Shown here in pieces: positions 13,228 through 62,745 of a stretch of DNA of 64,000 nt. Origin of the DNA: Rhododendron vialii (Eukaryota > Streptophyta > Magnoliopsida > Ericales > Ericaceae). The translations under genes and the position numbers were made by a program. The DNA lies in contig NC_080558.1 of NCBI RefSeq assembly GCF_030253575.1, positions 1,684,001-1,748,000 of the forward strand. Reading direction: 5' to 3'. Position 1 is the first letter of the stretch, and every line of letters begins with the position of its first letter. The notes under the pieces are model-generated. The model was not told where the DNA came from. It worked only from the letters and a program-made list of their open reading frames with translations, and ran no database searches.

Positions 13228-13295
13228 AATCAGGGACATGGTGGTCTGTGGCATTTCGACTAGATTTACATTTGGGGTCGTACTCATTGAGTGTC
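13228..13295 (+). pseudogene. Plus-strand fragment of an F-box C-terminal tail
   Basis: The plus strand reads RDMVVCGISTRFTFGV, which matches the C-terminal tail of the FBA domain in the minus-strand F-box copies (for example RDVVVCGISTRFTIGV at FB8). It is the only F-box fragment on the plus strand and directly abuts the left edge of cassette A, suggesting an inversion breakpoint. Confidence 0.65.
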
Positions 13296-13948
13296 ACAAA
13301 ATGAACAATTCAATCATAATGATGATGTGCCCTCTGTAAAGTCTAACAAGCTGCACAACACTGTCGTAGTGCGGTGGCTGACTAAGGCAACCCTTGAGCC
13401 TCTTCAATTGACTTATTTTTATAAGAGATAAACACATTGAAACTTACAAATAAACGCCACGGGCAAGGTATGAAATTGAGATTAAACCGGTAGATAAAGA
13501 ACTTGTTTGTACTTGGTTCACTAAAACGAAATGTTCATTTGGCCATTCGGGTCAAAATCATTTTACAATGTTTGAACGGTATGAGCAATTTAAAAATGAC
13601 ACGCATATTCATCAATGAACAAGAAATTTGGGAGGGAGGAAGTATTTCATTTGCCAGAAACCGATGGGATATGATTTGGCTGGGTTTCTTAATCTCAGAG
13701 GATGTACCCATCGAGAAGCCACCGTACGTAATCTTCAATATCATCTCGAAATTTACATGTGGGGTCCTAAATCGAATCATATATAGTAGTTTAATGATTT
13801 TAAATCAATTCAAAATATGCCTTATTGATTTAAATTCGAAAAAAGTTAAAAACATGCATTTTTCCAATTAAATGCAATTACGTTGTCCAGCTAATTAATC
13901 CTCATTCCTGGAATTACAATTTACAACGTTACACCTCAGTACTATACC

Positions 13949-13958
13949 TATATATAAA
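13949..13958 (+). promoter_or_regulatory. TATA box of MADS copy A
   Basis: TATATATAAA lies about 80 bp upstream of the MADS start codon and is conserved in copy B (29087-29096). Copy C has lost it by deletion. Confidence 0.6.
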
Positions 13959-14038
13959 GGCCGCTGGGTTTAAGAAAGATATAAACACCATCTAATAAAC
14001 CTATCTTACAGGCCATATCCCTAAATTACCCTTCTGAA

Positions 14039-14501
14039 ATGACAGGAACCAAAGTGAACCTTGAATACATAGCAAAAGATGCTGAAAGGAAATCCACCTT
14101 CAAAAGAAGAAAGAAAGGCTCGATGAAGAAGGTGGAGGAGCTTAGCATCCTGTGCGCAGTCGATGCTTGCGCAATCATTTTCTGCCCTTATGATCCTGAG
14201 CCAGACGTTTGGCCGTCACAATTGGAAGCTCAACAGATCATCGCGAAGCTCAGGAACACGTCCCCGTTAGAGAGAAACAGAAGAATGATGGATCAAAAAG
14301 ATTTCATAAGCCAACAACTCACAAGGGTAAATGAGCAAGTGGCTAAACAACATAGGGAAGTTCGGCACAAGGAGATGACCAATATATATCATGTTTGAGT
14401 GCTTGAACGACAAAGGGTTTGAGTATTTGAACATGTCTGACCTGAACGATTTAACTTCTCTGTTGAGCCAAAACATAAGGGCTATTGAAAGGAGAATATA
14501 A
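14039..14501 (+). pseudogene. MADS copy A: Mgamma type I MADS-box gene, frameshifted near the 3' end
   Basis: An AGL80-like protein starting MTGTKVNLEYIAKD. The MADS domain (about residues 1-60) contains KSTFKRRKKGSMKKVEELSI and the Mgamma-typical PYDPEPDVWPS. The frame matches copy B until an extra ATAT (ACCAATATATATCATG versus ACCAATATCATG in copy B, about 14382), after which it stops at codon 120. The original frame continues to 14501 and would give about 152 residues. The DNA-binding domain is intact, so a 119-residue protein is possible, but it would lack the last third of the conserved C-terminal region. TATA box and ATG are both present. Whether it is expressed is unknown. Confidence 0.85.
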
Positions 14502-15125
14502 TTTCTTGAATAAAAGCATAATGGTGGTGAGTAAAATGGGAAGCGGCGGCAGTGAGGCGCGAGTGCTAGGAGTCTTAGTTTCATTTATTTCAATTTTAGT
14601 ATCACACATGTTTAATGTTGTTGGTTCCTGACTTTTGTCATTTTTCGACTATAATAATGAGTTTTATGTTTTTCTTCCTTACTGCCATTTCACATGAATG
14701 ACAATCGAATGTTTAGCACATGACACAAACCGCTTTCTAGTTTTTGATTGTTTTTTCTTTCTTATAACAAACGTAGATGCATCAATTGTGTAGCTACCTC
14801 TAGTTAGATGATTTTCATTTTTACGTGATCTTCAAATTAAATAAGCGGCTCGAGTTAATGAAACGAAGACATTGATATGCCCCATTTTGAAACATAGAAG
14901 GATAATAATTAGAGAAAAATATTGGAAGGAGAGAATCCCTAGTGCAAAAATAAATAGAACTAGAGAGTAAAACATGACAATAAAGACCACACAAGACACA
15001 ATATACAAGACATGGACATCCTATTAACTATCACTCATACAAAAGATTAACTCACCCTGGCCATCCTAATAATAAATATCAGTCATCAACATTTAAAAAA
15101 AAAAAAAAACTGAAGAAGCTTCTCG

Positions 15126-16235
15126 TCATAATTTCCTCTCAATTCCTCCTACATGAAAAGGAGAGACAAGGCTCTCGACATAGGTGCTCCCATATCTAAA
15201 TTTAGTCGGAATGCCGCAAATCACTATGTCCCTCTCTGTGAATTTTTGTGGATTGTACACAACCAAGTGCTTCTCTCCATAGGTATCAAACAACAAAAAT
15301 TCGTCTTCCGCCAACATACCCACCACATGAAATATGGACAATCCAAAACACATCGTGAATTTGGTCCAAGGCTCTCTTACCCCGTAGTCTTTCATCATGC
15401 AAACCTTATTTCCCCGCTCACTAACCGAACAAAGAGAACCTCCAAGAACCACCACGTCATAATAGTCATAATCCCCACTCTCGCATCTACCTAACGAAGT
15501 AGGCATCGGCACTTCCTTGAAAATCTCACCCGATAAATCAAACTCAGTAATAATAAAATTAGAACCATTCCCATTCCAACTAAGGTAATGGAGGCATCCA
15601 TTCAAGAAAACCCCACTAGATTTTCCCACAATATACCGATGAAAATCTTCTCTTCTCCTCCAAGCATTCGTTTTTAGTGAATAGACAGCCAAGGTCGTAA
15701 TGCTACACCGATTTTCATAAAAAGATGAGAGCATCAGAATTACCTTGTAATCATCTGTCGATGAGTCGTAACCCAGTCCATACACATTCGGCACAACATA
15801 CGAATTCGAATTTTGGACAAATGGACGTACGGGTAGTTTCTTACATTCTCTAGTGGATGGATTCAACAAAAATATGGATTTGTCACTACGGGAAACTAGA
15901 AGCAAACCATCGCAAGAACTCAAAACCTGGACCCACTTCTCGTCGTTGTGTTGTTCCACGGAAGGAACCTTAAGTTTTGTGGAGGTCGGATTTACGTCGT
16001 TGTAATCCACCGAGTTGAGATTGCCAAAGCGGGAAATGATAATGATTTTTTGTTCAGGATATTTAGAGTTTTTGGTCTTGGTTCAATTGAGGTGGGTTTT
16101 GGCGAAATGGGGGTCGGAGATGAGGGATTTCCATAAGGGAGAAACACACTTGAAGCGGTAAAGAGATTTGACGAGTAGTCGAGAGAGTATATTGTCTGTG
16201 ATGAGATCCTGGGGAAGGGTTCCGCCATTCGACAT
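15126..16235 (-). pseudogene. FB2: F-box/FBA gene broken by one nonsense codon
   Basis: The start is the conserved [15 protein letters not shown] at 16235. The F-box (about residues 6-46) contains [19 protein letters not shown]. Codon 51 (16085-16083) is TGA where paralogues have CGA or CAA. Reading through it, the same frame continues without another stop for 370 codons in total, through the F-box-associated type 1 domain (SSCDGLLLVSRSDKS, FLLNPSTRECKKLP, VYSLKTNAWRR) to the usual tail GGIERKL. A CGA to TGA change is a typical methyl-CpG transition. As it stands only a 50-residue F-box peptide could be made. Family role: substrate adaptor of SCF ubiquitin ligases. Upstream ATGs exist, but the open frame before MSNGG is shifted in this copy, which argues against an N-terminal extension. 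Confidence 0.9.
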
Positions 16236-16881
16236 GGCCACCGCCGATGGGGTTTCAAATCGATGGGTGAGAAGTTTTTTGGGTGGTTCTGTGGAGGGTG
16301 GTGGTAAGTGGCAGAGCTTGGCGGTGGAGATGCTTTTATAAGCATAGTAATAAGTCGTTGATGGGAGATGGTTACGATCAAAACCCAAAATAAAAAAAGA
16401 TTGGAGAGGGTCAAGTCAACTCGATCTGCTGCAGTGAGAGGTGCTGTTGGAAAATTATTTCATGGAGATTAAATTATTTTACATCGCCGGGTAAGCATTT
16501 GTTTTCTTCAAATCAATTACGTTGCGCCACGTCACCACGTTCTACTTATTCGAACCACTATTTTGATGACATGGAGCAATTTAATTGATTTGAAAGAAAT
16601 TAAAATTTATACCGGGACCGGTATAAATAATTTATTCTCTCATTTCATGTTCAGCAAGCAATGCGGTGGCGACGGAAACTTAAATATTAAACTACTAGTA
16701 ATTTAATTTCAGAATGTCGTGAGTGTGCAGACCACGTAAAATGCGTGGTGATAAAAACTATCACGTTGACCATGTCTCATGATTATTTAATAATCACATT
16801 AGCCAAACAAAAAAGGAATAAAGAGAAGTCTACACTAAAGACAATTACTAATTAATATGTTTGGTATTAGTTTTATTTTTT

Positions 16882-17074
16882 GCGAATCTGATCTCGCTAG
16901 GTGACTTTGAAATATGGCTATACTTACTGTGCTGCTCTGATTGCATGCCATCTTTAATGGTTTGTGTGGTCTGTTGAGGCCCATTTGCCCCTATGGGTTC
17001 CTTTCTGTTGCGTAGGCTTTCGCCTTATAATTGAATACAATTCTCACATTTGCAAAAAAAAAAAAAAAAAAAAA
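16882..17074 (+). mobile_element. Poly-A retroposon 3' end (copy 2 of 5)
   Basis: Same sequence as 12233-12413, ending in a run of more than 20 A. It lies upstream of FB2 and just before the 3' end of FB3. Confidence 0.6.
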
Positions 17075-17142
17075 CCGTTTATTTGTTACGGATTAAAGGA
17101 AAAATAGTAAAATACATGAAGAAGCTTCTCTTTCATTGCAAC

Positions 17143-27985: not shown

Positions 27986-28571
27986 ATGTCGCGCAGAAAC
28001 AAATTAACACCGATCAGGCACTACAAATGTTCCATAAGCTTAATTTTCATTATAAGTACGATGTACTCATCGAGTGTCACAAAATGAACAATTCAATCAT
28101 AATGATGATGTGCCCTCTGTAAAGTCTAACAAGTTGCACACCCTCTGTAAAGTCTAACAAGCTGCACAACACCGCCGTAGTGCGGTGGTTGACCAAGGCA
28201 ACCCTTAATTAGCCTCTTCAATTGACTTATTTTTATAAGAGATAAACACATCGAAACTTACAAATAAATGCTGCCGGCAAGGTATGAAATTGAGGTTAAA
28301 CCGGTAGATAAAGAACTTGGGTTGTACTTGGTTCACTAAAACGAAATGTTCATTTGGCCATTCGGGTCAAAATCATTTTATAATGTTTGAAAGGTATGAG
28401 CAATTTAAAAATGGCATGCATACCCATCAATGAACAAGAAACTTGGGAGGGAGGAAGTAGTATTTCATTTGCCAGAAACCGATGGGATATGATTTGGCCG
28501 GGTTTCTTAATCTCAGAGGATGTACCCATCGAGAAGCCACCATACGTAATCTTCAATATCATCTTGAAATT

Positions 28572-28732
28572 CAAAAGTGATACTCATACAACAATCCAAA
28601 CACAACACCAAATACAATCTCTCACATACATATGGGCTTCACATACACTAATATGTGTGGGCTCCACATATATGTAAGAGGTTGTGTAAGTTGTTGTGTT
28701 TGGATCATTATATTATATGAGTAGCATTGTTG
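28572..28732. mobile_element. MITE with 9-bp duplication (cassette B copy)
   Basis: 161 bp bounded by CTTGAAATT (28563-28571) and CTCGAAATT (28733-28741), a 9-bp target duplication with one later change. Cassette A has the single empty site CTCGAAATT. Terminal repeats contain TACTCATA and ATCCAAACACAAC in inverted orientation. The 9-bp duplication suggests a Mutator-like element. The identical insertion is at 52164-52324 in cassette C. Confidence 0.85.
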
Positions 28733-29086
28733 CTCGAAATTTACATGTGGGGTCCTAAAACGAATCAAGCTTCTTAACTTAACTAGTCTTATGAACGTGG
28801 CTAATTTCATGTTGAAGTCGTGATAGACAAGCTGAACGATAAGTAACAATCCTTTTTCTTAACAAAAAGAAATGAGGTAAAAAGATAGTGATGGATTTGT
28901 CAAATATAGTAGTTTAATAATGATTTTAAATCAATCCAAAATATAGGTATGCCTTATTGATTTAAATTCGGAAAAAAGTAAAAAACAGGCATTTTTCCAA
29001 TTAAAATGCAATTACGTTGTCCAGCTAATTAATCCTCATTCCTGGAATTACAATTTACAACGTTACACCTCAGTACGTACTATACC

Positions 29087-29096
29087 TATATATAAA
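29087..29096 (+). promoter_or_regulatory. TATA box of MADS copy B
   Basis: TATATATAAA lies 80 bp upstream of the ATG, in the same context as copy A. Confidence 0.65.
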
Positions 29097-29175
29097 GGCC
29101 ACTGGGTTAAGAAAGATATAAACACCATCTAATAAACCTATCTTACAGGCCATATCCCTAAATTACCCTTCTGAA

Positions 29176-29634
29176 ATGACAAGAACCAAAGTGAACATTG
29201 AATACATAGCAAAAGATGCTGAAAGGAAATCCACCTTCAAAAGAAGAAAGAAAGGCTTGATGAAGAAGGCGGAGGAGCTTAGCATCCTGTGCGCAGTCAA
29301 TGCTTGCGCAATCATTTTCTGCCCTTATGATCTTGAGCCAGACGTTTGGCCGTCACAATTGGAAGTTCAACTCATCATCACGAAGCTCAGGAACATGTCC
29401 CCGTTAGGGCAAAACAGAAGAATGATAGATCAAAAAGATTTCATAAGCCAACAACTCACAAGGGTAAATGAGCAAGTGGCTAAACAACATAGGGAAGTTC
29501 GGCACAAGAAGATGACCAATATCATGTTTGAGTGCTTGAATGGCAAAGGGTTCGAGTATTTGAACATGTCTGATCTGAACGATTTAAATTCTCTGTTGAG
29601 CCAAAACATAAGGGCTATTGAAAGGAGAATCTAA
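29176..29634 (+). CDS. Type I Mgamma MADS-box protein (AGL80/PHERES-like), intact
   Basis: 152 residues, single exon. The MADS domain (about 1-60) reads MTRTKVNIEYIAKD, then KRRKKGLMKKAEELSILCAV and CAIIFCPYD. PDVWPS follows, a motif typical of the Mgamma group. The C-terminal part has the group-specific MIDQKDFISQQLTRVNEQ, MTNIMFECLNGKG and LNMSDLNDLNSLL blocks. Family members are nuclear transcription factors acting mainly in the female gametophyte and endosperm, usually as heterodimers with Malpha proteins. That role is inferred here. The protein ends right after ERRI, shorter than many relatives. A TATA box and 5' leader are present. It is the only one of three local copies without a lesion. 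Confidence 0.9.
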   Translation: MTRTKVNIEYIAKDAERKSTFKRRKKGLMKKAEELSILCAVNACAIIFCPYDLEPDVWPSQLEVQLIITKLRNMSPLGQNRRMIDQKDFISQQLTRVNEQVAKQHREVRHKKMTNIMFECLNGKGFEYLNMSDLNDLNSLLSQNIRAIERRI

Positions 29635-30326
29635 TTTCTTGAATAAAAGCATAATGGGGGTGACTAAAATGGGAAGCGGCGGCAGTGAGGCGCGAGTGCT
29701 GAGAGTCTTAGTTTCATTTATTTCAATTTTAGTATCACACATGTTTAATGTTGTTGGCTCTTGACTTTTGTCGTTTATTACTTCGTTAAGTACAATTTGT
29801 TAAGTTGTTATTGTTAGAGATGGATTGTCGTTTTTCAATCACCACATTAATGCTATAATAATGAGTTTTATGTTTTTCTTCCTTACTGCCATTTCACATG
29901 AATGACATTCGAATGTTTAGCTCACGACACAAACTGTTTTCTAGTTTTTGACAGTTTTTTTATTTCTTATGACAAACGTAGATGCATCAATTGTGTAGCT
30001 ACCTCTAGTTAGATGATTTTCATTTTTATGTGATCTACAAAAATAAGCGGCTCGAGTTAATGAAACAAGGACGTTGATATGCCCCATTTTGGAATGTAGA
30101 AGGATCATAATTAGAGAAAAGTATTGAAAGGAGAGAATCCTTGGTGCAAAAATAAATAGAACTAGAGAGAGTAAAACATGACAATAAAGACCACACAAAA
30201 CACAATATACAACACATGGACATCCTTTTAACTATCACTCATAAAAAAGATTAACTCACCCTGGACATCCTAATAATAACTATCAGTCATCTGTATTTAA
30301 AAAAAAAAACTGAAGAAGCTTCTCGT

Positions 30327-31439
30327 TCATAATTTTCTCCCAATTCCTCCTACATGAAAAGGAGAGACGAGGCTCTCGACATAGATGCTTCCATAGCTAA
30401 CTTTAGCACTCGGAATGCCGCAAATCGCAATGTCCCGCTTTTTGAATTTTTGTGGATTGTACACAACCAAGTGCTTCTCTCCATAGACGTGAAACAACAA
30501 AAATTCGTCTTCCGCCAACATACTCACCCCATTCAATACGAACAATTCAGAACACATCGTGAATTCAGTCCAAGACTCTCTTACCCCGTACTCCTTCATC
30601 ATGCAAACCTTATTTCCCTTCGCACTAACCAAACAAAGAGAACCTCCAAGAACCAACAGATCATAATAGTCATAATGCCTACTCTCGCATCTAACTAACG
30701 AAGTAGGCAGCGGCATTTCCTTGAAAATCTCACCCGATAAATCGACAGCTATTATATTCCTTTCGGAACGATTCCCATTCCAACTAAGGAAATGGAGGCA
30801 TCCATTCAAGAAAACCCCACTAGAGTTTCTCACAATAGATCGATACTGGAAATCTTCACTTCTCCTCCAAGCATTTGTTTTTAGTGAATACACAGCCACG
30901 GTCGTAGTGCCACACTGATTTTCATACGAGGATGAGAGCATCAAAACCTTGTAATCATCTGTCGATGAGTCGTAACCCACACCGTACACAATCGCCACAA
31001 CATACATATTCGATTTTTGGACAAATAGACATACGGGCAGTTTCTTGCATTCTCTAGTGGATGGATTCAACAAGAATATGGATTTGTCAGTGCGGGAAAC
31101 TAGAAGCAAACCATCGCAAGAACTCAAAACCTCGACCCACCACTCGGCGTCGTGTTGTTCCACGGTGGGAAACTCAAGTTTCGTGAAGGTCGGATTTACG
31201 TCGTTGTAATCCACCGAGTTGAGATTGCCAAAGCGGGAAATGATAACGATTTTTTTTTCAGGATAATTAGAGTTTTTGGTTTTGGTTTGATTGAGGTGGG
31301 TTTTGGCGAAACGGGGATCGGAGATGAGGGATTTCCATAAGGAAGAAACACACTTGAAGCGGTAAAGAGATTTGACGGGCAGTCGAGAGAGTATATTGTC
31401 TGTGATGAGATCCTGGGGAAGGGTTCCGCCGTTCGACAT
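30327..31439 (-). CDS. FB4: F-box/FBA type 1 protein, intact
   Basis: 370 residues from the conserved start [15 protein letters not shown] at 31439. The F-box (about 6-46) has [19 protein letters not shown], the surface that binds SKP1/ASK in an SCF ubiquitin ligase. The F-box-associated domain (about 100-360) has SSCDGLLLVSRTDKS, FLLNPSTRECKKLP, GVGYDSSTDDYKVLMLSS, VYSLKTNAWRR, FLNGCLHFLSW and GVRESWTEF. It would recognise an unknown substrate. It is closest to the CPR1/At3g06240-type family of plant F-box proteins and is intronless. The frame stays open 59 codons upstream with further ATGs at 31616 and 31547, but that stretch is out of frame in FB2, so I prefer 31439. It lies tail-to-tail with MADS copy B, 693 bp apart. 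Confidence 0.93.
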   Translation of the reverse strand: MSNGGTLPQDLITDNILSRLPVKSLYRFKCVSSLWKSLISDPRFAKTHLNQTKTKNSNYPEKKIVIISRFGNLNSVDYNDVNPTFTKLEFPTVEQHDAEWWVEVLSSCDGLLLVSRTDKSIFLLNPSTRECKKLPVCLFVQKSNMYVVAIVYGVGYDSSTDDYKVLMLSSSYENQCGTTTVAVYSLKTNAWRRSEDFQYRSIVRNSSGVFLNGCLHFLSWNGNRSERNIIAVDLSGEIFKEMPLPTSLVRCESRHYDYYDLLVLGGSLCLVSAKGNKVCMMKEYGVRESWTEFTMCSELFVLNGVSMLAEDEFLLFHVYGEKHLVVYNPQKFKKRDIAICGIPSAKVSYGSIYVESLVSPFHVGGIGRKL

Positions 31440-32090
31440 GGCGACCGCCAATTGGGTTTCAAATCGATGGGAGAGGAGTTTTTTGGGTGGTTGTGGAGGG
31501 TGGTGGTAAGTGGCAGAGCTTGGTGGTGGAGATGCTTTTATAAGCATTGTAATAAGTCGTTGATGGGAGATGGTTACGATCAAAACCCAAAATAAAAAAA
31601 GACTGGAGAGGGTCAACTCGATCAGCTACAGTGAGAGGTGCTGTTGGAAAATTATTTCATGGAGATTACATAGGTAAGCATTTGATTTCTTCAAATCAAT
31701 TACGTTGCGTCACGTCGTCACGTTTTACTTATTAGAACCAATGTTTTGATGATGTGGGGTAATATATATAATTAATTTGAAAAAAATTAAAGTTTATACC
31801 GAGGCCGGTATATATAATTTATTCTCTCATTTCATGTTTCGCAAGCAATGCGGTGGCGACCGGAAACTAAAATTTTAAACTACCAATAATTTAATTTCAG
31901 AATGTCGTGATTAAGTGTACTGACCACGTAAAATGCGTGGTAATCAAAGATTCTCTCGCGTTGACCATGTCTCATGACCATTAATTCATTTAATAATCAC
32001 ATTGGCCAAACAAAAAAGGAATAAAGAGAAGTCTACGCTAAAGACAAATACTACGAGTAATTAGTATGCTTGGTATTAATTATATTTTTT

Positions 32091-32262
32091 GCGAATCTGA
32101 TCTTGTTAGGCGACTTTGAAATTTTGCTACTCTTATTGTGCTCTAATTGTTATCTCTAATGGTTTGTTTGGTCTGTTGAGGCCCATTTGCCTTTATGGGG
32201 TTCCTCTCTGTTGTGTAGGCTTTTGCCTTACAGTTGAATACAATTCTCACATTTGCAAAAAA
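32091..32262 (+). mobile_element. Retroposon 3' end (copy 3 of 5, short A-tail)
   Basis: Same sequence as 12233-12413. The A-run has shrunk to AAAAAAGAGAGG. Confidence 0.55.
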
Positions 32263-32690
32263 GAGAGGTGAAAAAACCATTTATTCGTTATATATTAAAA
32301 GAAAAATACATGAAGAAGCTTCTCTTTCATTGCCTCCCAATCCCTCCCAAATTATATTAACTACAATCTTAGTTAATTTGGTAGAGTAAATTTTAAATAT
32401 TTAAAAGTCAAAGGAAATATAATTTGGAAAGCTAATATACAGCTCTACGAACAACAAACATGGGAATATGCCTAAATCCCTCCTTCTTCCTCTTACGTAA
32501 TCTGATTCCATACGTATCAAAGTTCTACAAGTCAAAAATAGGATAAAAAGAAAAGCTCAAACGAAATCTTCATTTAAGAGATCCCATGATTATTGTAATT
32601 AGCTAAACCAATCAACTAAACAAATTTTGGTTTATGAGAACCCATGATTTATGGGATAGTTTCTTCATAAAATTATATATATATATATAG

Positions 32691-39745: not shown

Positions 39746-39823
39746 AGCGCCCAAAAAGAAATAAAGAGAAGTCTACACTAAAGACAAATACTAATTAATA
39801 TGCTTGATATTAATTTTATTTTC

Positions 39824-43718: not shown

Positions 43719-43739
43719 ACTACCACTTCGTACTATTCT

Positions 43740-51471: not shown

Positions 51472-52163
51472 AAAAATAGTTGAGTACATCATCTTTGTAG
51501 AAAATTAAGTTTATCAGAGATTTGTGGCCGCCTGGTTGGATAACATGAAATGAATTGTTAGAGTGATTCAGAAAGATAATTGTGAAATAAATTAACACCG
51601 ATCAGGCACTACAAATGTTCCATAAGCTTAATTTTCATTATAAGTACGATGTACTCATCGAGAGTCACAAAATGAACAATTCAATCATAATGATGATGTG
51701 CCCTCTGTAAAGTCTAACAAGTTGCACACCCTCTGTAAAGTCTAACAAGCTGCACAACACCGCCGTAGTGCGGTGGTTGACCAAGGCAACCCTTAATTAG
51801 CCTCTTCAATTGACTTATTTTTATAAGAGATAAACACATCGAAACTTACAAATAAATGCTGCTGGCAAGGTATGAAATTGGGGTTAAACCGGTAGATAAA
51901 GAAATTGAGTTGTACTTGGTTCACTAAAACGAAATGTTCATTTGGCCATTCGGGTCAAAATCATTTTATAATGTTTGAAAGGTATGAACAATTTAAAAAT
52001 GGCATGCATACCCATCAATGAACAAGAAACTTGGGAGGGAGGAAGTAGTATTTCATTTGCCAAAAACCGATGGGATATGATTTGGCCGGGTTTCTTAATC
52101 TCAGAGGATGTACCCATGCATCGAGAAGCCACCGTACGTAATCTTCAATATCATCTTGAAATT

Positions 52164-52324
52164 CAAAAGTGATATTCACACAACAATCCAAACACAACAC
52201 CAAACACAATCTCTCACATACATGTGGGCTCCACACACACTAATATGTGTGGGCCCCACATGTATGTAAGATGTTATGTAAGTTGTTGTGTTTGGATCAT
52301 TATATTATATGAGTAGCATTGTTG
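52164..52324. mobile_element. MITE with 9-bp duplication (cassette C copy)
   Basis: Same insertion as 28572-28732, with the same length and flanks (CTTGAAATT and CTCGAAATT), inherited through the duplication that made B and C. Confidence 0.85.
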
Positions 52325-52689
52325 CTCGAAATTTACATGTGGGGTCCTAAATCGAATCAAGCTTCTTAACTTAACTAGTCTTATGAACGTGGCTAATTTC
52401 ACGTTCAAGTCGTAATAGAAAAGCTGAACAATAAGTAACATTCCTTTTCTTAACAAAAAGAAATGAGGTAAAAAGATAGTGATGGATTTGTCATATATAG
52501 TAGTTTAATAATGATTTTAAATCAATCCAAAATATAGGTATGCCTTATTGATTTAAATTCGGAAAAAAGTCAAAAACATGCATTTTTCCAATTAAAATGC
52601 AATTACGTTGTCCAGCTATTTAATCCTCATTCCTGGAATTACAATTTACAACGTTACACCTCAGTACTATACCTAAATTACCCTTCTGA

Positions 52690-53120
52690 AATAACGAGAA
52701 CCAAAGTGGACCTTGAATACATAGCAAAAGATGCTGAAAGGAAATCCACCTTCAAAAGAAGAAAGAAAGGCTTGATGAAGAAGGCAGAGGAGCTTAGCAT
52801 CCTGTGCGCAGTCGATGCTTGCGCAATCATTTTCTGCCCTTATGATCTTGAGCCAGACGTTTGGCCGTCACAATTGGAAGTTCAACTCATCATCGCAAAA
52901 CAGAAGAATGATAGATCAAAAAGATTTCGTAAGCCAACAACTCACAAGGGTAAATGAGCAAGTGGCTAAACAACATAGGGAAGTTTGGCACAAGGGGATG
53001 ACCAATGTCATGTTTGAGTTCTTGAATGGCAAAGGGTTCAAGTATTTGAACATGTCTGATCTGAACGATTTAAATTCTCTATTGAGCGAAAACATAAGGG
53101 CTATTGAAAGGAGAATCTAA
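52690..53120 (+). pseudogene. MADS copy C: Mgamma MADS-box pseudogene without TATA box or start
   Basis: The coding sequence follows copy B closely (DLEYIAKDAERKSTFK, KGLMKKAEELSILCAV), but the start codon is ATA instead of ATG (AAATAACGAGAACC). About 80 bp between CTATACCTA and AATTACCC, including the TATA box and most of the leader, is missing. A 29-bp deletion at about 52894 then shifts the frame inside the region after PDVWPS. The C-terminal part (MIDQKDFVSQQLTRVNEQ to ENIRAIERRI) survives in another frame. It cannot give a normal protein. Confidence 0.92.
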
Positions 53121-54648
53121 TTTCTTGAATAAAAGCATAATGGTGGTGAGTAAAATGGGAAGCGGCACCGGCGGTGAGGCGCGAGTGCTAGGAGTCTTAG
53201 CTTCATTTATTTCAATTTTAGTATCACACATGTTTAATGTTGTTGGTTCCTGACTTTTATCGTTTATTGCTTCGTTAAGTACAATTTTTTGTTGTTGTTT
53301 TTATTGTTAGTGATGGATTGTCGTTTTTCGATCACCACATTAACGCTATAATAATGAGTTTTATGTTTTTCTTCCTTACTGCCATTTCACAGGAATGACA
53401 TTTGAATGTTTAGCTCACGACACAAACCGCTTTCTAGTTTTTGACAGTTTTTTCTTTCTTATGACAAACGTAGATGCATCAATTGTGTAGCTACCTCTAG
53501 TTAGATGATTTTCATTTTTACGTGATCAACAAATTAAATAAGCGGCTCGAGTTAATGAAACGAGGACGTTGATATGCCCCATTTTGGAACATAGAAGGAT
53601 CATAATTAGAGAAAAGTATTGAAAGGAGTGAATCCTTAGTGCAAAAATAAATAGAACTAGAGAGAGTAAAACATGACAATAAAGACCACACAAGACACAA
53701 TATACAATACATGGATCTCCTTTTAACTATCACTCATACAAAAGATTAACTCACCCTGGACATCCTAATAATAACTATAAAAAAAAAAAAACTGAAAGAA
53801 GCTTCTCATTCATAATTTCCTCCCAATTCCTCCTGCATGAAAAGGAGAGACGAGGCTCTCGACATAGGTGCCCCCATATCTAACTGTAGCGCATGGAATG
53901 CCGCAAATCGCTATGTCCCGCTTTGTTAATTTTTGTGGATTGTACACAACCAATTGCAAATACACAACCAATTGCTTCTCTCCATAGACGCAATTCACGT
54001 GAAACAACAAAAATTCGTCTTCCGCCAACATACTCACCCCATCCAATAAGAACAATTCAGAAGAATCAGAACACATCGTGAATTCAGTCCAAGACTCTCT
54101 TACCCCGTACTCCTTCATCATGCAAACCTTATTTTCCTTCGCACTAACCAAACAAAGAGAACCTCCAAGAACCAACAGATCATAGTAGTCATCATACCTA
54201 TACTCGCATGTAACTAACGAAGTAGGCAGCGGTATTTCCTTGAAAATCTCACCTGATAAATCGAAAGCAGTAATAAACCTATTGAAAACATTCCCGTTCC
54301 AACTAAGGAAATGGAGGCATCCATTTAAGAAAACCCCACCAGAGTTTCTCACAATACCCTGGAAATCTTCACTTCTCCTCCAAGCATTTGTTTTTAGTGA
54401 ATACATAGCCACGCTCGTAGTGCCACTCTGATCGTAATATGAGGATGAGAGCATCACAACCTTGTAATCATCTGTCGATGAGTCGTAACCCACACCGTAC
54501 ACAACATGCATATTCGAATTTTGGACAAATAGACATACGGGCGGTTTCTTCAATTCTCTAGTTGATGGATTCAACAAGAATATGGATTTGTAACAGCGGT
54601 AAACTAGAAGCAAACCATCGCAAGAACTCAAAACCCGGAGCCACAACA

Positions 54649-55747
54649 CACTACAAGAAAAATGAAAATTGGTGAAGAAAAAGTGGCGACAAAATTTAAT
54701 TTCGTCACTAAATGAGTATATTTGGCGACGAAAAAATATATTTGTCACTGTTTTAACAACTTCCTTGACAAAATAATTTCGTCACCAATTATACTTGTTT
54801 AGCGACAAAAAAAATATTTTCGTCACCAATGGGTATCTATTTGGTGACGAAATACATTTTTCGTCACCAAAAGCTTAAAAAAGGTGATGAAATTATTTTT
54901 CGTCACCAAAGATAATCATTTGGTGACAAAATATCGGCAAATGAGACCAATTTAGTAACGAAATATTTTTTTCGTCGCCAAATGCTTAACTTTGGTGACA
55001 AAAAATAATTTCATCACCATTTTAACGCTTTCAGTGACGAAAAATATTTCGTCGTTAAATGGGTACCTTTCGTGACGAAATTTATGAATTGCGCTTTGTC
55101 ACTAAATATATTTTGGACATAACTTTTTACTAAAAACTCCGATTGACATAATTCAAATTGGTTTTGAACAATAACTCAATTACCTACAACTTTCATGTTT
55201 ATCAAAATTGCTAATTTTAATGTTTAAAGGTTCAAAATTACATTTGAAATATATTTTCATGTTAAACATATATGTTATATATTAGATATTTCAAATATTT
55301 GCTGAAAAGTGTGTGTGGTGTAGTTGGTCGGGGCTTATGCGGAAAACTCAAGGGACTCAGGTTCGAAACCCAGTAGGAGCAAGAAAGAAGGATTTTTTTC
55401 CCATATGAAAACGTTTTTTGCAACGAAAAATTTCGTCACCGATTTCTTATATTGGTGACGAAAATTTTCGTCACCGATGTGACCCATCGGTGATGATTTT
55501 TTTCGTCGTCAAACAGCACAATAAGCGAGGAAAAAAATTTCGTCACCAATTATTCACTTTTTGGTGACAAAATATTTCGTCATCAAAAGGCACTATAGGT
55601 GACGAAAACTAGATTTTGTCACCAGGTAGGAATCCTCGACAACTTTTAGTCGACAAATTTTTTTTCGTCACCTATATTATATGTGACGAATAATATGCAA
55701 TTTGTGACGATTTTCATTCGTCACCCAATGAAATTTTTCTTGTAGTG
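54649..55747. mobile_element. Non-autonomous CACTA element, 1.1 kb, TSD ACA, inside FB10
   Basis: The ends CACTACAAGAAAAATGAAAATTGG and CAATGAAATTTTTCTTGTAGTG are inverted repeats, with ACA duplicated on both sides (54646-54648 and 55748-55750). Both flanks are packed with TTTCGTCACC/GGTGACGAAA motifs in both orientations. The centre carries a tRNA-like segment. No coding capacity was seen. Its terminal CACTACAAG matches the 6.9-kb element at 1229, but the subterminal motif differs (GGTGACGAAA against GGTGACA), suggesting a different TnpA specificity. Confidence 0.93.
55311..55384 (+). ncRNA. tRNA-like segment with pol III A and B boxes, inside the CACTA element
   Basis: TGGTGTAGTTGG (55316-55327) fits an A box, and GGTTCGAAACC (55360-55370) fits a B box, about 33 bases apart as in tRNA genes. 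No good acceptor stem or clear anticodon arm is seen, so it is tRNA-derived rather than a functional tRNA gene. It could be a captured tRNA or SINE head. Confidence 0.5.
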
Positions 55748-57801
55748 ACATCTTGGCGTCGTGTTGTTCCTCGGTGGGAAACTCAAGTTTCGTGAAGGTC
55801 GGATTTACATCGTTGTAATCCATCGAGGTGAGATAGCCAGGAGGGAAAATGAAAATGATTTTTTGTTCAGGATAATTAGAGTTTTTGGTCTTGGTTCGAT
55901 TGGGGTGGGTTTTGGCGAAACGGGGGTCGGAGATGATGGATTTCCATAAGGGAGAAACACACTTGAAGCGGCAAAGAGATTTGACGGATAGTCGAGAGAG
56001 TATATTGTCTGTGATGAGATCCTGGGGAAGGGTTCTGCCGGCGTTCGACATGGTCACCGCAGATGGGGTTTCAAATCGATGGGAGAGGAGCTGTTTGGGT
56101 GGTTGTGGAGGGTGGTGGTAAGTGGCAGAGCTTGGTGGTGGAGATGCTTTTATAAGCATAATAATAAGTCGTTGATGGGAGATGGTTACGATCAAAACCC
56201 AAAATAAAAAAAAGACTGGAGAGGGTCAACTCGATCAGCTGCAATGAGAGGTGCTGTTGGAAAATTATTTCATGGAGATTACATAGGTAAGCATTTGATT
56301 TCTTCAAATCAATTACGTTGTGTCACGTCGTCACGTTTTGCTTATTAGAACCAATATTTTGATTATGTGGGGTAATATATATAATTAATTTGAAAGAAAT
56401 TAAAGTTTATACCGACACCGGTATATATAATTTATTCTTTCATTTCATGCTCCGCAAGCAATGCGGTGGCGACCCGAAACTTAAATATTAAACTACTAAT
56501 AATTTAATTTCAGAATGTCGTGATTAAGTGAACAGACTACGTAAAATGCGTGGTAATCAAAGATTCTCTCACGTTGACCATTAATTCATTTAATAATCAC
56601 ATTGGCCAAACAAAAAAGGAATAAAGAGATGTCTATGCTAAAGACAAATACTACGAGTAATTAGTATGCTTGGTATTAATTATATGGGGAAAAAACTAAA
56701 ATAGTCCCTGTAGTTAAGTATTTGTGTCAATTTGGTCCCTGTAGTTGTACTTGGCTCGATTTGCACTCTGTATTTTTCATTTTGTTTCAATTTGGTCCAA
56801 TTACTAACTTCCGTTAGTCTGCCGTTAGTCCTTTAAACAACAAAATCATATGGCCCCTTTTTTTGGGGTTAAAATAGACTCGTTCGGCTAAATAAGCCAA
56901 CTGGCTTATTTTTTTATTCTTATTCAAATTTTTTCGTATCTGTTAGTTTTTTATCAATTTTTTTGGGGTTATTGTATCGTTATGACGAGAGGAATCTAAA
57001 AAGTAAAAAATTATGATCGAGATCTAATTTTTTTTGAATAAAGACGAAAAAATTGGCTTATTGGTTTATTTTTGTCTTTATTAAAAAAAATTAGGTTTCG
57101 ATCGTAATTTTTTACCTTTTAGATTCCTCTTGTTATGACGATGCAATAATTCCCAAAAAAAATGATGAAAAAGTAACAAATACGAAAAAAATTTGAATAA
57201 GGACAAAAAATAAGCCAGTTGGCTTATTTAGCTGAATAGGGTTACTCATTCCCCACGTGCCTTAATATACCTCTGAACCAAAACACAACTCATTCTTCCA
57301 TTCTCCATTGATAAGGAGGCACTTGGGAAAAAATTTGGTTATAATTTTCTACAAAAAATTACCGTCGAATTCAGTGTTTTCATGATCAGCCATGATGCAT
57401 CATAACTGCTGATATTGTCTACATTTTCAACTTGTGGACAAATACTGAGATGCCTTATTTTTCTGCATAGTACTAAATGCATATAGAACCATGTCCAAAA
57501 GTCACAACATGATATAGATCCAAAAGTCAACATGATAAATAACCATGTCCAAAAGTCAGAATATTATATAAACTCAATTCCAAATTTACCATGTCATAAC
57601 CTAATATATAGACATAACAAACCACTCAATTAGGTTACAATAAACCTAACTTAACAGCCCAAGTGGTTACAAAAAATAGTGCCCTGTCATTACATTCATT
57701 TTCCTACACTTGGCCCATGCACTGATTCCTGACTAGGAATGTTGAAAAATAAACCTAAGCTAATTTTTTCGTCTTTATTTTAAAAAAAAATTGAATTTCG
57801 A

Positions 57802-58076
57802 TACTCTCTCCGTCCCTTTTTCAGTGTCCTGCTTCGTAATTCCAACTTATTAAAAAGACATCATCATTATACCTTTCACATCAATTTTTTCCTCCACGTT
57901 TCTTACTTACCCTTCATCATTACACTTTTACTCACTTACTTTTTAAAATGAAATCTACTTTTAGAGACAAAATAGACAATTCATCAACTTTTACCCACTA
58001 ACTTTACAAAATAGACACTTATTAAGGGACAGCCTAAAATGGAATACCGGACTATAAATAAGGAACGGAGGGAGTA
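57802..58076. mobile_element. Stowaway MITE nested in the MULE-type element
   Basis: TACTCTCTCCGTCCC and GGAACGGAGGGAGTA are terminal inverted repeats with TA borders. The interior matches 24993-25278. Confidence 0.88.
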
Positions 58077-58122
58077 ATAATTTTTTACTTTTTAGATTCT
58101 TCTCGTCATGACGATGCAATAA

Positions 58123-58147
58123 CCCCCCCCCCCCCCCCCCCCCCCCC
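58123..58147. repeat. Homopolymer run of 25 C
   Basis: Uninterrupted C run followed by AAATAAATAAATAAAT. Its length may be unreliable. Confidence 0.9.
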
Positions 58148-58423
58148 AAAATAAATAAATAAATAAAAATTGACGAAAAACTAACAAATACGAAAAAAAT
58201 AAGGAAGTTGGCTTATTTAGTCGAACGGGTCTGTTTTAACCCCAAAAAAGGAGGCCATATGATTTTGGTATTTAAAGGACTAATGGAAGTTAGTAATTGG
58301 ACCAAATTGAAACAAAATAGAAAGTACAGAGTGTAAATCGAGCCAATTAAAACTACAGGGACCAAATTGATACGAACACTTAACTACAAGGACTATTAGA
58401 GTTTTTTTCCCTAATTATATTTT

Positions 58424-58608
58424 CTACGAATTTGATCTTGTTAGGCGACTTTGAAATATGGCTACTGTTATTGTGCTCTGATTGCTATCTCTAATGGTTT
58501 GTCTAGTCTGTTGAGGCCCATTTGTCTCTATGGGGTTTCTCTCTGTTGTGTAGGCTTTCGCCTTACAGTTGAATACAATTCTCACATTTGCAAAAAAAAA
58601 AAAAAAAA
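58424..58608 (+). mobile_element. Poly-A retroposon 3' end (copy 5 of 5)
   Basis: Same sequence as 12233-12413, separated from its F-box gene by the MULE insertion. Confidence 0.6.
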
Positions 58609-58887
58609 CCAATTATTCGTTATAGATTAAAAGAAAAATACATGAAGAAGCTTCTCTTTCATTGCCTCCCAATCCCTCCCAAATTATATTAACTACAATC
58701 TTAGTTAATTTGGTAGAGTAAATTTTAAATATTTAAAAGTCAAAGGAAATATAATTTGGAAAGCTAATATACAGCTCTACGAACAACAAACATGGGAATA
58801 TGCCTAAATCCCTCCTTCTTTCTTTTACGTAATTTGATTCCATACGTATCAAAGTTCTGCAAGTCAAAGATAGGATAAAAAGAAAAG

Positions 58888-59636
58888 CCGGGCGCGGCAC
58901 TTCTCTGAAAACTTCATCCGATAAATCAAAAGCAATAATCCTTTTGGAAAAATGTCGTGCATCACAACAAAGGTAATGGAGACATCCATTTAAGAAAACC
59001 CCACCAGAGTTTCCCTCAACACACCGAGACTGAAAATCTTCAACTCTCCTCCAAGCATTAGTTTTTAGTGAATAGACAGCCACGATCGCAAAGTCATCAA
59101 TTACGCCCTCTTCATCAAAGTATGAGAGCATCCAAAGTACCTTGTAATCATCAGTCGTTGAGTCGTAACCCACACCATACTTATCCAGCAATACACAATT
59201 ATTCCAATAATCCCTTTGGACAAATGGGCATATGGGCAGTTTCGTGCATTCTCTAGTGGATGGATTCAACAAGAATATGGATTTATCACTACGGGAAACT
59301 AGCTAGAAGCAAACCATCACAAGAACTCAAAACCTGGACCCACTTCTTGGTGTCGTGTTGTTCCATCGTAGGAAACTCAAGTTTTGTGGAGGTCGGATTT
59401 ACGTCGTTGGGATCCATCGAGTAGAGATTGCCACAGCCCGAAATGATAATAATTTTCTGTTCAGCATATTTAGAGTTTTTGATCTTGGTTCGATTGAGGT
59501 GGGTTTTGGCGAATTGGGGGTCAGAGATTTGGGATTTCCACGAGAAAGATGTACACTTGAAGCGGTGAAGAGATTTGACGGGTAGTCGAGAGACTATATC
59601 TTTGATGTCTTGGGGAAGGTTTCCGCCGCTGGACAT
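58888..59636 (-). pseudogene. FB11: F-box/FBA gene, frameshifted and 3'-truncated
   Basis: The start MSSGGNLPQDIKDIVSR (59636) lacks one Ile codon compared with FB5 and FB12. The F-box is LPVKSLHRFKCTSFSW. At 59300-59307 CTAG is duplicated (AAACTAGCTAGAAGC versus AAACTAGAAGC), shifting the frame in SSCDGLLLVS. The FBA frame then runs FLLNPSTRECTKLP, GVGYDSTTDDYKVLWML, VYSLKTNAWRRVEDFQ and FREVPR, and is cut at about 58888, where unrelated cassette C sequence joins. It lacks the last 120 or so residues. Confidence 0.9.
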
Positions 59637-59639
59637 GGC

Positions 59640-61600
59640 TGCCGCCTTCGGATTGGAGGGTGGTGGTAAGTGCCAGAGCTTGGTGGTTGGAGATCCATTT
59701 TATAAGCATTGTGAGTCGTTGATTGGAGATGGTTATGAGCAAAACCCAAAATAAAAAAGATTAGAGAGGGTCAACTCAGCTGAGGTGGGGAAATTATTTC
59801 GTGTTCCGCGAGCAATCCAGTGATGACGAAAAATTATTTCGTCACCATGTCTCATGACCACTCAATAAACTCAATGGCTTAAAAAAAAAAGACAGTCAGT
59901 ATCATTTAGTTTTAGTTATATTTTCTTACTTTTTCGTAAAACTTTTCGAGAAGGAGCACCTTATCATAAAGAGCTAGGATACTCCGAAAAGGAAAAGACA
60001 AGCATCCAACAAAATGTTGGATGAAACACCTTAGAGAACGTTACAATTTTAATTTTCGAATACCGTCTAGAAAAACCTTAAAATCCTCCACTAAAGATAA
60101 CCTTAAAACCCTCCATTATTGGTCACTAAAGATAACCGTTTCTTAGTTTTTTCATCATTAGTGAGTTTTTGTTCTTTTTTTCTAATTTTGATCATATGTT
60201 TTTGCCTTTTAGGTTCATTTCATCAAGATAATTTCTTTTCTTTTCTGTTATCCAAACAAAACAAAGCATCAAGGACTGCCATCTTGAATCATTCATCAAA
60301 AGGTTATTAGCATGCGAGGACATTGTCATTTCAAATTTCTTAAAAGAGAGGTCCATCAAAAATGAAAAAAAAAAAAAAACGTCATTTTAATTTACCATCT
60401 TAAAATCAAACAAGTCAAATTAAGTATATTGGTGACAAACCGACTCAATTGGGAGACCAATCACACCATTTAGACTTCCACTATCGTCAGTCTGTCCCTC
60501 CTCCCTCTTACATAATCTGATTCCATACGTATCAAAGTTCTGCAAGTCGAAGATAGGATAAAAAGAAAAGCTTAAACGAATTCTTCTCATGATTATTGTA
60601 ATTAGCGAAACCAATCAACTAAACAAATTTTTGTTTAAGAGAACCCTTGATTTACGGGATATATAGTTTCTTGATAACATTATTTATATATATACATTCT
60701 ACCTTCAAGGGATGGACCTTTTCAGAGTTCATGATCGTCTTAGTTATACGTATCATAGATCGTTTGGATCTCAAATCTTCATTCTCTGCTTCCACTAGTA
60801 ATTCTTAAATGACCGAACAAAAAATCCTGGAAATCAAAATTTATACCAAAGTGGACCTTCCTTTCAAGGCATATATAAGAAAAACCAAGACACAATTTTT
60901 CATTTACATTTCTTACCTACCGCAGTATCTTATTTGCCAGATACCGATGGGATATGGTTTGGCTCATTTTTAAAACTGTAGGATGTGCCCATCGAGAATT
61001 CACCGTAACCTTCAATCATTTCGCAATTTGCATGTGGGGTTGTAAATTTAATCAAGCTTCTTTACTTAATTACTATTATGAATGATTGAAAAAACATTCA
61101 CGTTCATTTCATAAGTAGATAGACAAGCAATTTGATCGATATTGACCATTAAGTAACTAAAACTGAACATCAACCTTGTTACGAACATGGCAAGAACTTA
61201 GCTATTCACTCAAATAACCAGTGGTTCTCAAAAAGATAAACAAAGTAAAGAAGAACATATTTTTTGACAGAAACAAAAAGAGCTTCATTTCTTATAATTC
61301 AGATAAGTCATACGTACAGAGTACAGAAGAACAACGAAGATGTACAGGCTTGGAAATGGACATCCTAATACGCACCTACCACTGAAACAAAACAAAGGGG
61401 ATCCGGAGATCCTGCTGGGCACTTTCTGTAGTGCATCTTGCACGGCATATCCAAGCCGTCCAGGATGCACTACAGGAAATGCATGCCATGCAGAATTACA
61501 AGTCCTACAAATTTCTATGAGCAAACAATGAACTCAGCCAGAGCAATTACACCCTGAGGATGTACCAGTCATCTTTATTTCACAAAAATACCTGAAGAAG
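59640..61600. other. Intergenic region between FB11 and FB12
   Basis: 59640-60650 is the upstream region shared with FB5 and FB12. 60870-61180 matches both the MADS upstream region (TTTGCCAGATACCGATGGGA, compare 13653) and the region left of FB6 (35390-35560), so it is a cassette remnant with the MADS gene deleted. No gene was seen. Confidence 0.65.
61423..61479. repeat. Short imperfect hairpin (24-bp arms, 8-base loop)
   Basis: TTTCTGTAGTGCATCTTGCA... (61423-61446) pairs with 61455-61479 with two mismatches and one bulge. It lies in the 3' flank of FB12. The equivalent place at FB6 (about 36800) has a different sequence between the same flanking bases. Confidence 0.7.
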
Positions 61601-61626
61601 CTTCTCTTTCACTGCCTCCCAATTCC

Positions 61627-62745
61627 TCATCCATGATGAGGTGAGATGAGGCTCTCGACATACATGACCCCAAATGTAAATTTAGTTGGAATGCCACGAA
61701 CCACCATGTCCCTCATTGTTTCTTTTTTCGGATCGTACACAACCAGTTTCTCTCCATAAACTCTACCTTGTATTTTCAGCAAATATTCGTTTTCCCCGAA
61801 CAAACACAACAATTTCACTGTAGACATTCCGGTCATATCGATTGTAAGTTTGGTCCAAGACTTTCTTACCCCGTGTTCTTCCCTCATCCAAACTCCAACT
61901 TGGCAATTATGCTGCCTAACCAAACAAAGACAATCCCCAAGAACCTCCAACCGATAGTACGCGTGCGCGAGATTTGTGGAATCATCCAAACAAGCAGGTA
62001 GCGGTACTTCTCTGAAAACCTCATCTGATAAATCGAAAGCAATAATTCTTTTGGAACAATTTTGAATTGCATCACAATAAAGGTAATGGAGACATCCATT
62101 TAAGAAAATCCCACCAGAGTTTCCCAGAACAGACCGATGCTGGAAATCTTCAACTCTCCTCCAAGCATTAGTTTTTAGTGAATAGACAGCCACGATCACA
62201 ACGTCATCAATTACGCCCTCTTCATCAAAGTATGAGAGCATCCAAAGTACCTTGTAATCATCTGTCGATGAGTCATAACCCACACCATACTTATCCAGCA
62301 AAACACATTTATTCCAATAATCCCTTCGGACAAATGGGCATATGGGCAGTTTCTTACATTCTCTAGTGGATGGATTCAACAAGAATATGGATTTATCACT
62401 ACGGGAAACTAGAAGCAAACCATCGCAAGAACTCAAAACCTGGACCCATTTCTTGGTGTCGTGTTGTTCCACCGTAGGAAACTCAAGTTTTGTGGAGGTC
62501 GGATTTACGTGGTTGGGATCCACCGAGTAGAGATTGCCACAGCCCGAAATGATAATAATTTTCTGTACCGCATATTTAGAATTTTTGATCTTGGTTCGAT
62601 TGAGGTGGGTTTTGGCGAATTGGGGGTCGGAGATTTGGGATTTCCACGAGAAAGATGTACACTTGAAGCGGTGAAGAGATTTGACGGGTAGTCGAGAGAC
62701 TATGTCTTTGATGATATCTTGGGGAAGGTTTTCGCCGCTGGACAT
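61627..62745 (-). CDS. FB12: F-box/FBA type 1 protein, intact
   Basis: 372 residues from MSSGENLPQDIIKDIVSR at 62745. No longer in-frame start is shared by its relatives FB5 and FB11. The F-box (about 6-47) is LPVKSLHRFKCTSFSWKSQ, the SKP1-binding part of an SCF ubiquitin ligase adaptor. The FBA domain (about 100-365) shows SSCDGLLLVSRSDKS, FLLNPSTRECKKLP, GVGYDSSTDDYKVLWML, VYSLKTNAWRRVEDFQ, FLNGCLHYLYC, FDLSDEVFREVPLPACL, LEVLGDCLCLV and LVVYDPKKETMRDMVV. The protein stops after ESLISPHHG, slightly earlier than the FB4 type. It is intronless. The substrate is unknown. It is the only functional-looking member of the second F-box subgroup here and differs clearly from FB4, so the two may not share targets. 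Confidence 0.93.
   Translation of the reverse strand: MSSGENLPQDIIKDIVSRLPVKSLHRFKCTSFSWKSQISDPQFAKTHLNRTKIKNSKYAVQKIIIISGCGNLYSVDPNHVNPTSTKLEFPTVEQHDTKKWVQVLSSCDGLLLVSRSDKSIFLLNPSTRECKKLPICPFVRRDYWNKCVLLDKYGVGYDSSTDDYKVLWMLSYFDEEGVIDDVVIVAVYSLKTNAWRRVEDFQHRSVLGNSGGIFLNGCLHYLYCDAIQNCSKRIIAFDLSDEVFREVPLPACLDDSTNLAHAYYRLEVLGDCLCLVRQHNCQVGVWMREEHGVRKSWTKLTIDMTGMSTVKLLCLFGENEYLLKIQGRVYGEKLVVYDPKKETMRDMVVRGIPTKFTFGVMYVESLISPHHG

Follow-up and report, generated by a model that had tools for sequence, protein, structure and literature searches.

Probable origin of a repeated MADS-box and F-box gene pair in Rhododendron vialii by one insertion into a tandem F-box array

Layout of the cassettes

The window (the whole 64,000-nucleotide stretch of C2 analyzed here) contains three cassettes in which a plus-strand MADS-box gene is followed by a minus-strand F-box gene in homologous DNA: cassette A (13280..17139, +; the blocks aligning with B 28063-32333), cassette B (27996..32687, +), and cassette C (51584..58888, +). 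Co-duplication of the two genes, as proposed by a sequence-only reading, is thus real. In a self-comparison of the window, the three blocks align over kilobases at about 85 to 96% identity, which excludes chance resemblance. Both genes are broken in A and open in B, and cassette C is interrupted by two DNA-transposon-like inserts. A further pair, Z, with both genes open, lies 22.9 kb left of the window (C2:1,661,132-1,663,400; window -22,868..-20,600). We also recognized a relic cassette, D' (38104..40083, +), which has lost its MADS gene and consists of the MADS-side 3' flank, the F-box 3' end, and the upstream region. Its start corresponds to a position about 145 bp past the MADS stop, and it keeps about 0.44 kb that is absent from Z, A, B, and C.

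The earlier reading had the MADS and F-box cassette duplicated at least four times. A tblastn search with MADS_B over 224 kb found four MADS places, only three of them inside the window (A, B, and C), and a genome-wide protein search agreed. The supposed fourth copy, D, corresponds either to unit E, which has no MADS gene, or to D', where that gene is gone. The claim that only B keeps both genes intact holds within the window, where B alone has both open, and fails beyond it because of Z; one survivor per gene class is likewise contradicted by pair Z and by the open F-box gene of unit E. As for a described “retroposon tail,” no reverse transcriptase was found in the 10 unassigned open reading frames scanned (72 frames listed in all), and the single one above the Pfam cut-off matched Ptta/En/Spm.

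MADS-box and F-box genes

MADS_B (29176..29634, +) is open and encodes 152 amino acids with an N-terminal SRF-type MADS domain (PF00319, 59.2 bits, residues 10 to 50), the sole domain at an E value of ≤0.01; no K-box was detected at that threshold. One open frame spans residues 1 to 152 in the B, Z, and chromosome C13 MADS genes, suggesting a single exon. Matches in the PDB were confined to the MADS domains of MEF2, SRF, MCM1, and SEPALLATA3. We provisionally take MADS_B to be a candidate member of the type I M-gamma/AGL80-like kind. In alignment, MADS_A (14039..14501, +) is frameshifted by a 4-bp insertion, and it matches MADS_B in two tblastn pieces (88% and 95%); MADS_C (52691..53120, +) aligns with an ATG-to-ATA change at its start and a 29-bp frameshifting deletion.

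F-box_B (30327..31547, -) is open over 406 amino acids from the first ATG, and its conserved start is probably the inner methionine of MSNGG, giving about 370 amino acids. F-box_A (15126..16250, -) carries a single in-frame TGA after about 50 codons, and F-box_C (53810..56159, -) is split by a 1.1-kb insert (54649..55747) with ends that read CACTACAAGAAAAA...TTTTTCTTGTAGTG and a 3-bp target duplication, ACA; we presume this insert to be of the CACTA family. F-box_E (61627..62745, -), open over 372 amino acids, has no MADS neighbor of the cassette kind, and its frame stops about 7 codons short of the end of B. The E-type F-box E4 (36473..38101, -) is disrupted and offers a further flank that lacks the MADS segment, although it has another insert at about 35,600-36,470. 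The F-box domain (PF00646, cut-off 20.5) scored 31.5 bits in B and 35.3 bits in E, and an FBA/beta-propeller C terminus was recognized in both (PF24750, 36.5 bits in B, cut-off 25; PF07734, 34 bits in E, cut-off 21.1), while a PDB search with the F-box protein gave no match. Among the 102 candidates scored out of 801, the closest F-box relatives beyond the cluster form an array at C2:14.1-14.6 Mb, with no MADS gene among the matches listed there.

A common tree of the cassettes

With the two inserts of C excluded beforehand, 92 informative sites across the MADS gene, spacer, and F-box gene supported the split ZA|BC, versus 8 and 7 for the other two, and all indels of ≥3 bp that divide the four copies two-two fit the same split. 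Trees built without D' gave bootstrap values of 80 (ZA) and 47 (BC) for the MADS segment and 97 (ZA) and 100 (BC) for the F-box. The MADS gene, spacer, and F-box gene have a single common history and were inherited as one DNA block. D' clusters with Z over part of the F-box, which we counted against the insertion explanation developed below. The region is a tandem one, rich in repeats, in an assembly judged without reads, so haplotypes or misassembled repeats might be suspected of producing the copies. Such an artifact is most improbable given the 4 to 9% pairwise divergence of Z, A, B, and C, their distinct insertions with target duplications, and the nested tree.

The probable founding insertion

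A segment of ∼1.6 kb, comprising the MADS gene and its flanks, is present on both C2 and chromosome C13. The open C13 MADS gene is the closest relative beyond the cluster (82% identical), and no F-box of the cassette group was found in the 19.5 kb around it. On C2, the segment sits next to an F-box gene, within its 3' flank, whereas the corresponding flank of paralog E is uninterrupted (61021..61394, with the equivalent of the insertion point near 61,150). Since unit E combines this uninterrupted flank with the lack of a MADS gene, it probably never carried one.

Both borders of the insertion are readable. The left border lies at 28835..28850 in B, where E-like flank on the left gives way to C13-like DNA on the right and about 13 bp at the border are near-identical, and at 52427..52439 in C. 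We compared the adjoining DNA with 500 shuffles per comparison, counting those that reached the observed score. Outside the left border, C 52,326-52,424 and B 28,740-28,832 match E (0/500 each) and not C13 (313/500 and 202/500, respectively); inside it, C 52,440-52,540 and B 28,852-28,960 match C13 (0/500 each) and not E (396/500 and 410/500). The right border is kept only in D' (38785..38800), with C13-like DNA to the left and the F-box 3' flank to the right: D' 38,700-38,787 matches C13 (0/500) and neither E (431/500) nor E4 (443/500), and D' 38,789-38,942 matches E and E4 (0/500 each) and C13 weakly (35/500). Evidence for the right border thus comes from one decayed copy, a further point counted against the insertion explanation.

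The DNA common to C13 and C2 extends to either side of the MADS gene, and the two genes could instead have been adjacent before the C2/C13 split, with E and C13 each losing one of them. We regard such ancestral linkage as unlikely: the C13 match ends where the F-box flank starts and E runs unbroken across the site, a pattern that would require two losses, each exact and complementary to the other. Synteny left by an old genome duplication was scarcely visible, with only one match over 90 bp beyond the MADS segment between 19.5 kb of C13 and the 224-kb region. We rejected retroposition as the main route of the MADS gene, since C13 and C2 share its 5' and 3' flanks. No transposon ends on the segment were recognized by eye.

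Linkage elsewhere in the genome

All comparisons were made within one genome (13 contigs, 532.6 Mb). A cassette-group F-box lay within about 4 kb of none of the eight best MADS matches outside the cluster. This set left out weaker matches (C8:529,804 and below), L030 (C12:16.37 Mb, short MADS pieces only), and L001 to L008 (3.1-kb, MADS domain match only); F-box B or E gave no match at an E value of ≤1e-3 at L030 or L001 to L008. As a positive control, two of the same four queries, both genes of the array (at +83 kb and +87 kb), matched all four cassette loci. F-box domains are abundant (1,209 first-look candidates, 150 scored), and by a rough scaled figure at most about 3 in 100 MADS places would therefore have a chance F-box neighbor within 10 kb. 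The C13 segment without a cassette-group F-box, the two borders, and the 0/8 other loci together indicate that the pairing began as one insertion. Of the two options named in the sequence-only reading, linkage by chance and a reproductive module inherited together, joint inheritance as one block stands, and the module finds no support in the other MADS loci or in a single founding insertion.

Retention and selection

A module would mean that the MADS protein or its partners are the target of the F-box protein and that selection holds the pair together. Retention is concordant in all five cassettes: Z and B keep the two genes open, in A, C, and D' each of the two is damaged or lost, and with two survivors per class, the same two would be expected 1 time in 10 under independence. 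Both B genes appear constrained relative to C (MADS changes, 3 versus 12; F-box nonsynonymous changes, 14 versus 43, with 9 and 8 synonymous), and the MADS omega is 0.30 for C13-Z and 0.33 for C13-B. The concordant retention and the lower change in B were both counted against the single-insertion explanation. Against a module, the Z-A comparison shows equal F-box change (24 versus 25), the MADS nonsynonymous:synonymous counts do not differ between open (5:1) and broken (18:4) copies (p 1.0), and the F-boxes of E and at +83 kb and +87 kb are open with no MADS neighbor of the cassette kind. The genes are also convergent, making a common promoter unlikely. Adding the 0/8 other loci and the origin in one insertion, we give the module little credence. 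On the expected low dN/dS of the intact genes, the data point both ways: Z-B omega was statistically indistinguishable from neutral (MADS 0.71, p 0.56; F-box 0.75, p 0.20), yet each B gene had accumulated fewer changes than its broken C counterpart. Overall, the selection signal is mixed.

Proposed origin

Based on these observations, one MADS insertion into a tandem F-box array, followed by block copying through tandem duplication and decay of most copies, is very probably the origin of the cassettes. The insert would have been a segment of ∼1.6 kb in which a single-exon MADS gene of type I (AGL80-like) was flanked by about 340 bp on its 5' side and 0.8 kb on its 3' side, and it would have come to lie tail to tail with an F-box gene, inside that gene's 3' flank. 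Exchange inside the array, presumably unequal crossing-over, would then have copied MADS gene, spacer, and F-box as one block; the direction in which the segment was copied between C13 and C2 is inferred. D' would have branched first, followed by a deletion of ∼0.44 kb in the rest, the ZA/BC split, and then the splits of Z from A and B from C, with both genes surviving open in Z and B as most copies decayed. The adjacency of the two genes seems to be a positional accident rather than a sign of a common function. Each open gene likely acts independently, the MADS protein as a putative seed or gametophyte transcription factor of type I and the F-box protein as a putative SCF substrate adaptor with predicted SKP1 binding. 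There is a slight chance that the accidental pair later became a selected unit in one pathway, for example with the F-box protein turning over the MADS protein or a partner in the central cell or endosperm, surviving only as pairs (Z and B) with unpaired survivors lost. In that event, the pair would offer a young test case for linkage between a transcription factor and an SCF adaptor.

Comparison with known systems

At this locus, the steps by which a single insertion into a tandem array can turn two unrelated gene families into a repeating “cassette” can be followed within one genome: a related copy exists elsewhere, one flank is still uninterrupted, both borders can be read, and the later decay is visible. 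The case is one of ordinary birth-and-death evolution whose origin is unusually legible. A narrow search by title and abstract start found no report of a co-duplicated MADS/F-box cassette. Rapid birth-and-death evolution of type I (M-type) MADS-box genes, including M-gamma/AGL80-like genes, is described in PMC13293092, and Nam et al. 2004 is cited on the same theme there and in PMC8788222. A blueberry MADS-box survey (PMC10096547) reports that type I MADS genes include tandem duplicates; the string “f-box” occurs 0 times in its main text.

Like type I MADS genes, those described here are short and single-frame, with an SRF-type domain and no K-box match, and they occur as tandem copies with many pseudogenes and purifying selection at depth. 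Unlike the usual type I MADS genes, the C2 copies are passengers of an F-box block; their M-gamma placement is putative. Plants also carry F-box arrays of the FBA/beta-propeller class. The array on C2 resembles these in its F-box domain, FBA-type C terminus, tandem copies, and many decayed members, here mostly on one strand. It differs from them in a sub-branch with a MADS gene in the F-box 3' flank. The locus cautions that co-duplicated neighbors in plant F-box arrays may not be functional partners.

Cassette copies and gene content

We analyzed 224 kb of chromosome 2 (C2), comprising the window (C2:1,684,001-1,748,000) and 80 kb on each side (window coordinates -79,999 to +144,000), and searched the 532.6-Mb genome (13 contigs) in six frames, scoring the best candidates. 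Self-alignment recovered three homologous blocks with ~85 to 96% identity, each a plus-strand MADS-box gene followed by a minus-strand F-box gene: cassettes A (13,280 to 17,139), B (27,996 to 32,687), and C (51,584 to 58,888), which keep the letters of the sequence-only reading. We named a further cassette, to the left of the window, Z and a relic without its MADS gene, at 38.1 to 40.1 kb, D′; the F-box units that lack a MADS gene are E, E2, E3, and E4. The MADS gene of cassette B (MADS_B) is open, encodes 152 aa that include a PF00319 domain, and gives no K-box match; presumably, the cluster gene belongs to M-gamma. A tblastn search of the 224 kb with MADS_B found four places, in Z (-22,868 to -22,413), A, B, and C, in agreement with the genome-wide search, for which 91 of 91 candidates were scored. 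The earlier claim of at least four cassettes in the window therefore stands for A, B, and C, but the MADS copies there number three and the fourth unit is not a MADS cassette.

The F-box gene of cassette B (F-box_B) is open and encodes PF00646 and a beta-propeller C terminus; we take its product to be a predicted SCF adaptor, as expected from its family. Minus-strand F-box matches run from -40.8 kb to +88.5 kb, and weaker plus-strand matches extend out to +141.9 kb (tblastn, 224 kb). Because these matches reach well beyond the MADS copies, the underlying structure is the F-box array, only a portion of which contains the MADS gene. An open 1,004-aa frame for a leucine-rich-repeat receptor-like protein (21025 to 24039) lies between cassettes A and B.

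Several repeats were also found in the window. An LTR-type element (40183 to 48771; 2.7-kb LTRs, 94.4% identical; TTTTT target duplication) borders, at 40,182, on the end of an E-type F-box; its 3.2-kb interior has a CCHC zinc-knuckle ORF as the sole Pfam match among the part of the frames scanned, and it looks non-autonomous. Upstream of the F-box gene of cassette C is a 1.7-kb insert (56686 to 58411) with a 9-bp target duplication (TAATTATAT), by which we judge it to be presumably Mutator-like. A Ptta/En/Spm plant transposase fragment (PF03004, 33 bits) occupies 5355 to 6050, and a tandem palindromic repeat of two direct copies, 94.6% identical and each strongly self-complementary, occupies 19546 to 20315.

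Shared history of the two genes

MADS and F-box genes share one history. Across the cassette alignment of Z, A, B, and C, which omits both inserts of C, the split ZA|BC is favored by 92 sites and the two alternative splits by 8 and 7; all indels of ≥3 bp that divide the four copies two and two fit ZA|BC. With D′ left out, the same groups appear in the MADS-segment tree (bootstrap, 80 for ZA and a weak 47 for BC) and the F-box tree (97 and 100). A hairpin-forming, MITE-like insert at 28563 to 28733 in B, with a counterpart in C (about 52160 to 52330) and absent from Z and A, is an independent marker of B/C sisterhood. Over the C-terminal half of the F-box gene (30337 to 31047), ZA and BC diverge by 11 to 15%, versus 3 to 12% in neighboring noncoding windows, which may reflect a higher rate of F-box change or, alternatively, exchange with other members of the array.

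We place D′ as the first copy to branch off. Its MADS 3′ flank falls outside all four copies (8 to 10% from each versus 3 to 7% among them); counting against this placement, the 3′ part of its F-box is closer to Z (6.3%) and A (7.7%) than to B or C (11 to 13%), and FastTree groups it with Z (support, 0.79).

The founding insertion

Outside the cluster, the genome-wide search gave its best MADS match at C13:32,738,264-32,738,719; this copy is 82% identical and open. The MADS gene and its flanks are common to C13 and C2. No F-box of this group was found in the 19.5 kb around the C13 copy (loci L032 and L031; 14.3 kb on the F-box side and 4.8 kb on the other). As judged by eye, its 3′ flank holds a copia-like element (LTRs 97.8% identical), and a 689-aa frame on the opposite side is PPR-like.

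Both borders of the inserted segment are visible as switches in similarity, for which we ran 500 shuffles per comparison and counted those reaching the score. On the left, the C13 match starts at 28,835 in B and 52,427 in C; immediately left, both match the 3′ flank of E, an F-box unit without a MADS gene. C 52,326 to 52,424 gave 0/500 versus E and 313/500 versus C13, and C 52,440 to 52,540 gave 396/500 and 0/500; B 28,740 to 28,832 gave 0/500 versus E, 0/500 versus E4 (another such unit), and 202/500 versus C13, and B 28,852 to 28,960 gave 410/500 versus E and 0/500 versus C13. About 13 bp at this border are near-identical in C, C13, and E. The right border is known from D′ alone, within ∼0.44 kb missing from Z, A, B, and C: on the MADS side of this stretch, 38,508 to 38,787 is C13-like, and the remainder, 38,789 to 38,942, matches the E and E4 3′ flanks. 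Here, 38,508 to 38,700 gave 0/500 versus C13 and 242/500 versus E; 38,700 to 38,787 gave 0/500 versus C13, 431/500 versus E, and 443/500 versus E4; and 38,789 to 38,942 gave 0/500 versus E and E4 and 35/500 versus C13. In unit E, the left and right flank parts are contiguous, around 61,150. The inserted piece totals ∼1.6 kb, of which B has 1,324 bp and D′ alone retains a further 280 bp; no transposon ends were recognized on it.

Since flanks on both sides were copied too, the segment evidently arose by DNA-level copying and not as a retrocopy of the MADS gene. C13 may be donor, recipient, or fellow copy. The E4 3′ flank carries a GC-rich to A-rich insert (about 35600 to 36470), which starts near the equivalent of the MADS insertion site, is A-rich at its end, and may be a retroposon.

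Linkage and joint function

Most likely, the MADS gene is a passenger in a birth-and-death F-box array, which would have carried this one MADS gene along. From sequence, a joint function of the pair appears a weak alternative: the two genes are retained or lost together in 5/5 cassettes (with two survivors per class, a chance outcome 1 time in 10), and both B genes show constraint relative to C. These points speak weakly for it, but the linkage does not recur at the eight best MADS matches outside the cluster (one on C13, four on C7, two on C11, and one on C3). Within ∼4 kb of each, or across 19.5 kb for C13, four F-box queries of this group (the B and E genes plus two open genes, at +83 and +87 kb) gave no match with an E value below 0.89. 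As a control, the +83- and +87-kb queries, two of the four, matched 4/4 cassette loci at E≤1e-5. Beyond the cluster, relatives of F-box_B map chiefly to C2:14.1-14.6 Mb (best 102 of 801 candidates), where no MADS match occurs among the genome-wide matches listed.

More broadly, among 100 MADS places, none has a PF00646 F-box among the best 150 of 1,209 candidates within 10 kb and one has it within 20 kb; the cassette F-boxes are not among these 150, which makes the count a weak one. Scaled to all 1,209 candidates, some perhaps not real, chance would place at most about 3.4 F-box neighbors within 10 kb per 100 MADS genes; therefore, a single MADS/F-box juxtaposition is unremarkable. A shared promoter seems unlikely because the genes are convergent, their ends ∼0.7 kb apart in B. 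Among known systems, PMC13293092 describes rapid birth and death of M-type MADS genes and a requirement for AGL80 in both the central cell and the initiation of endosperm.
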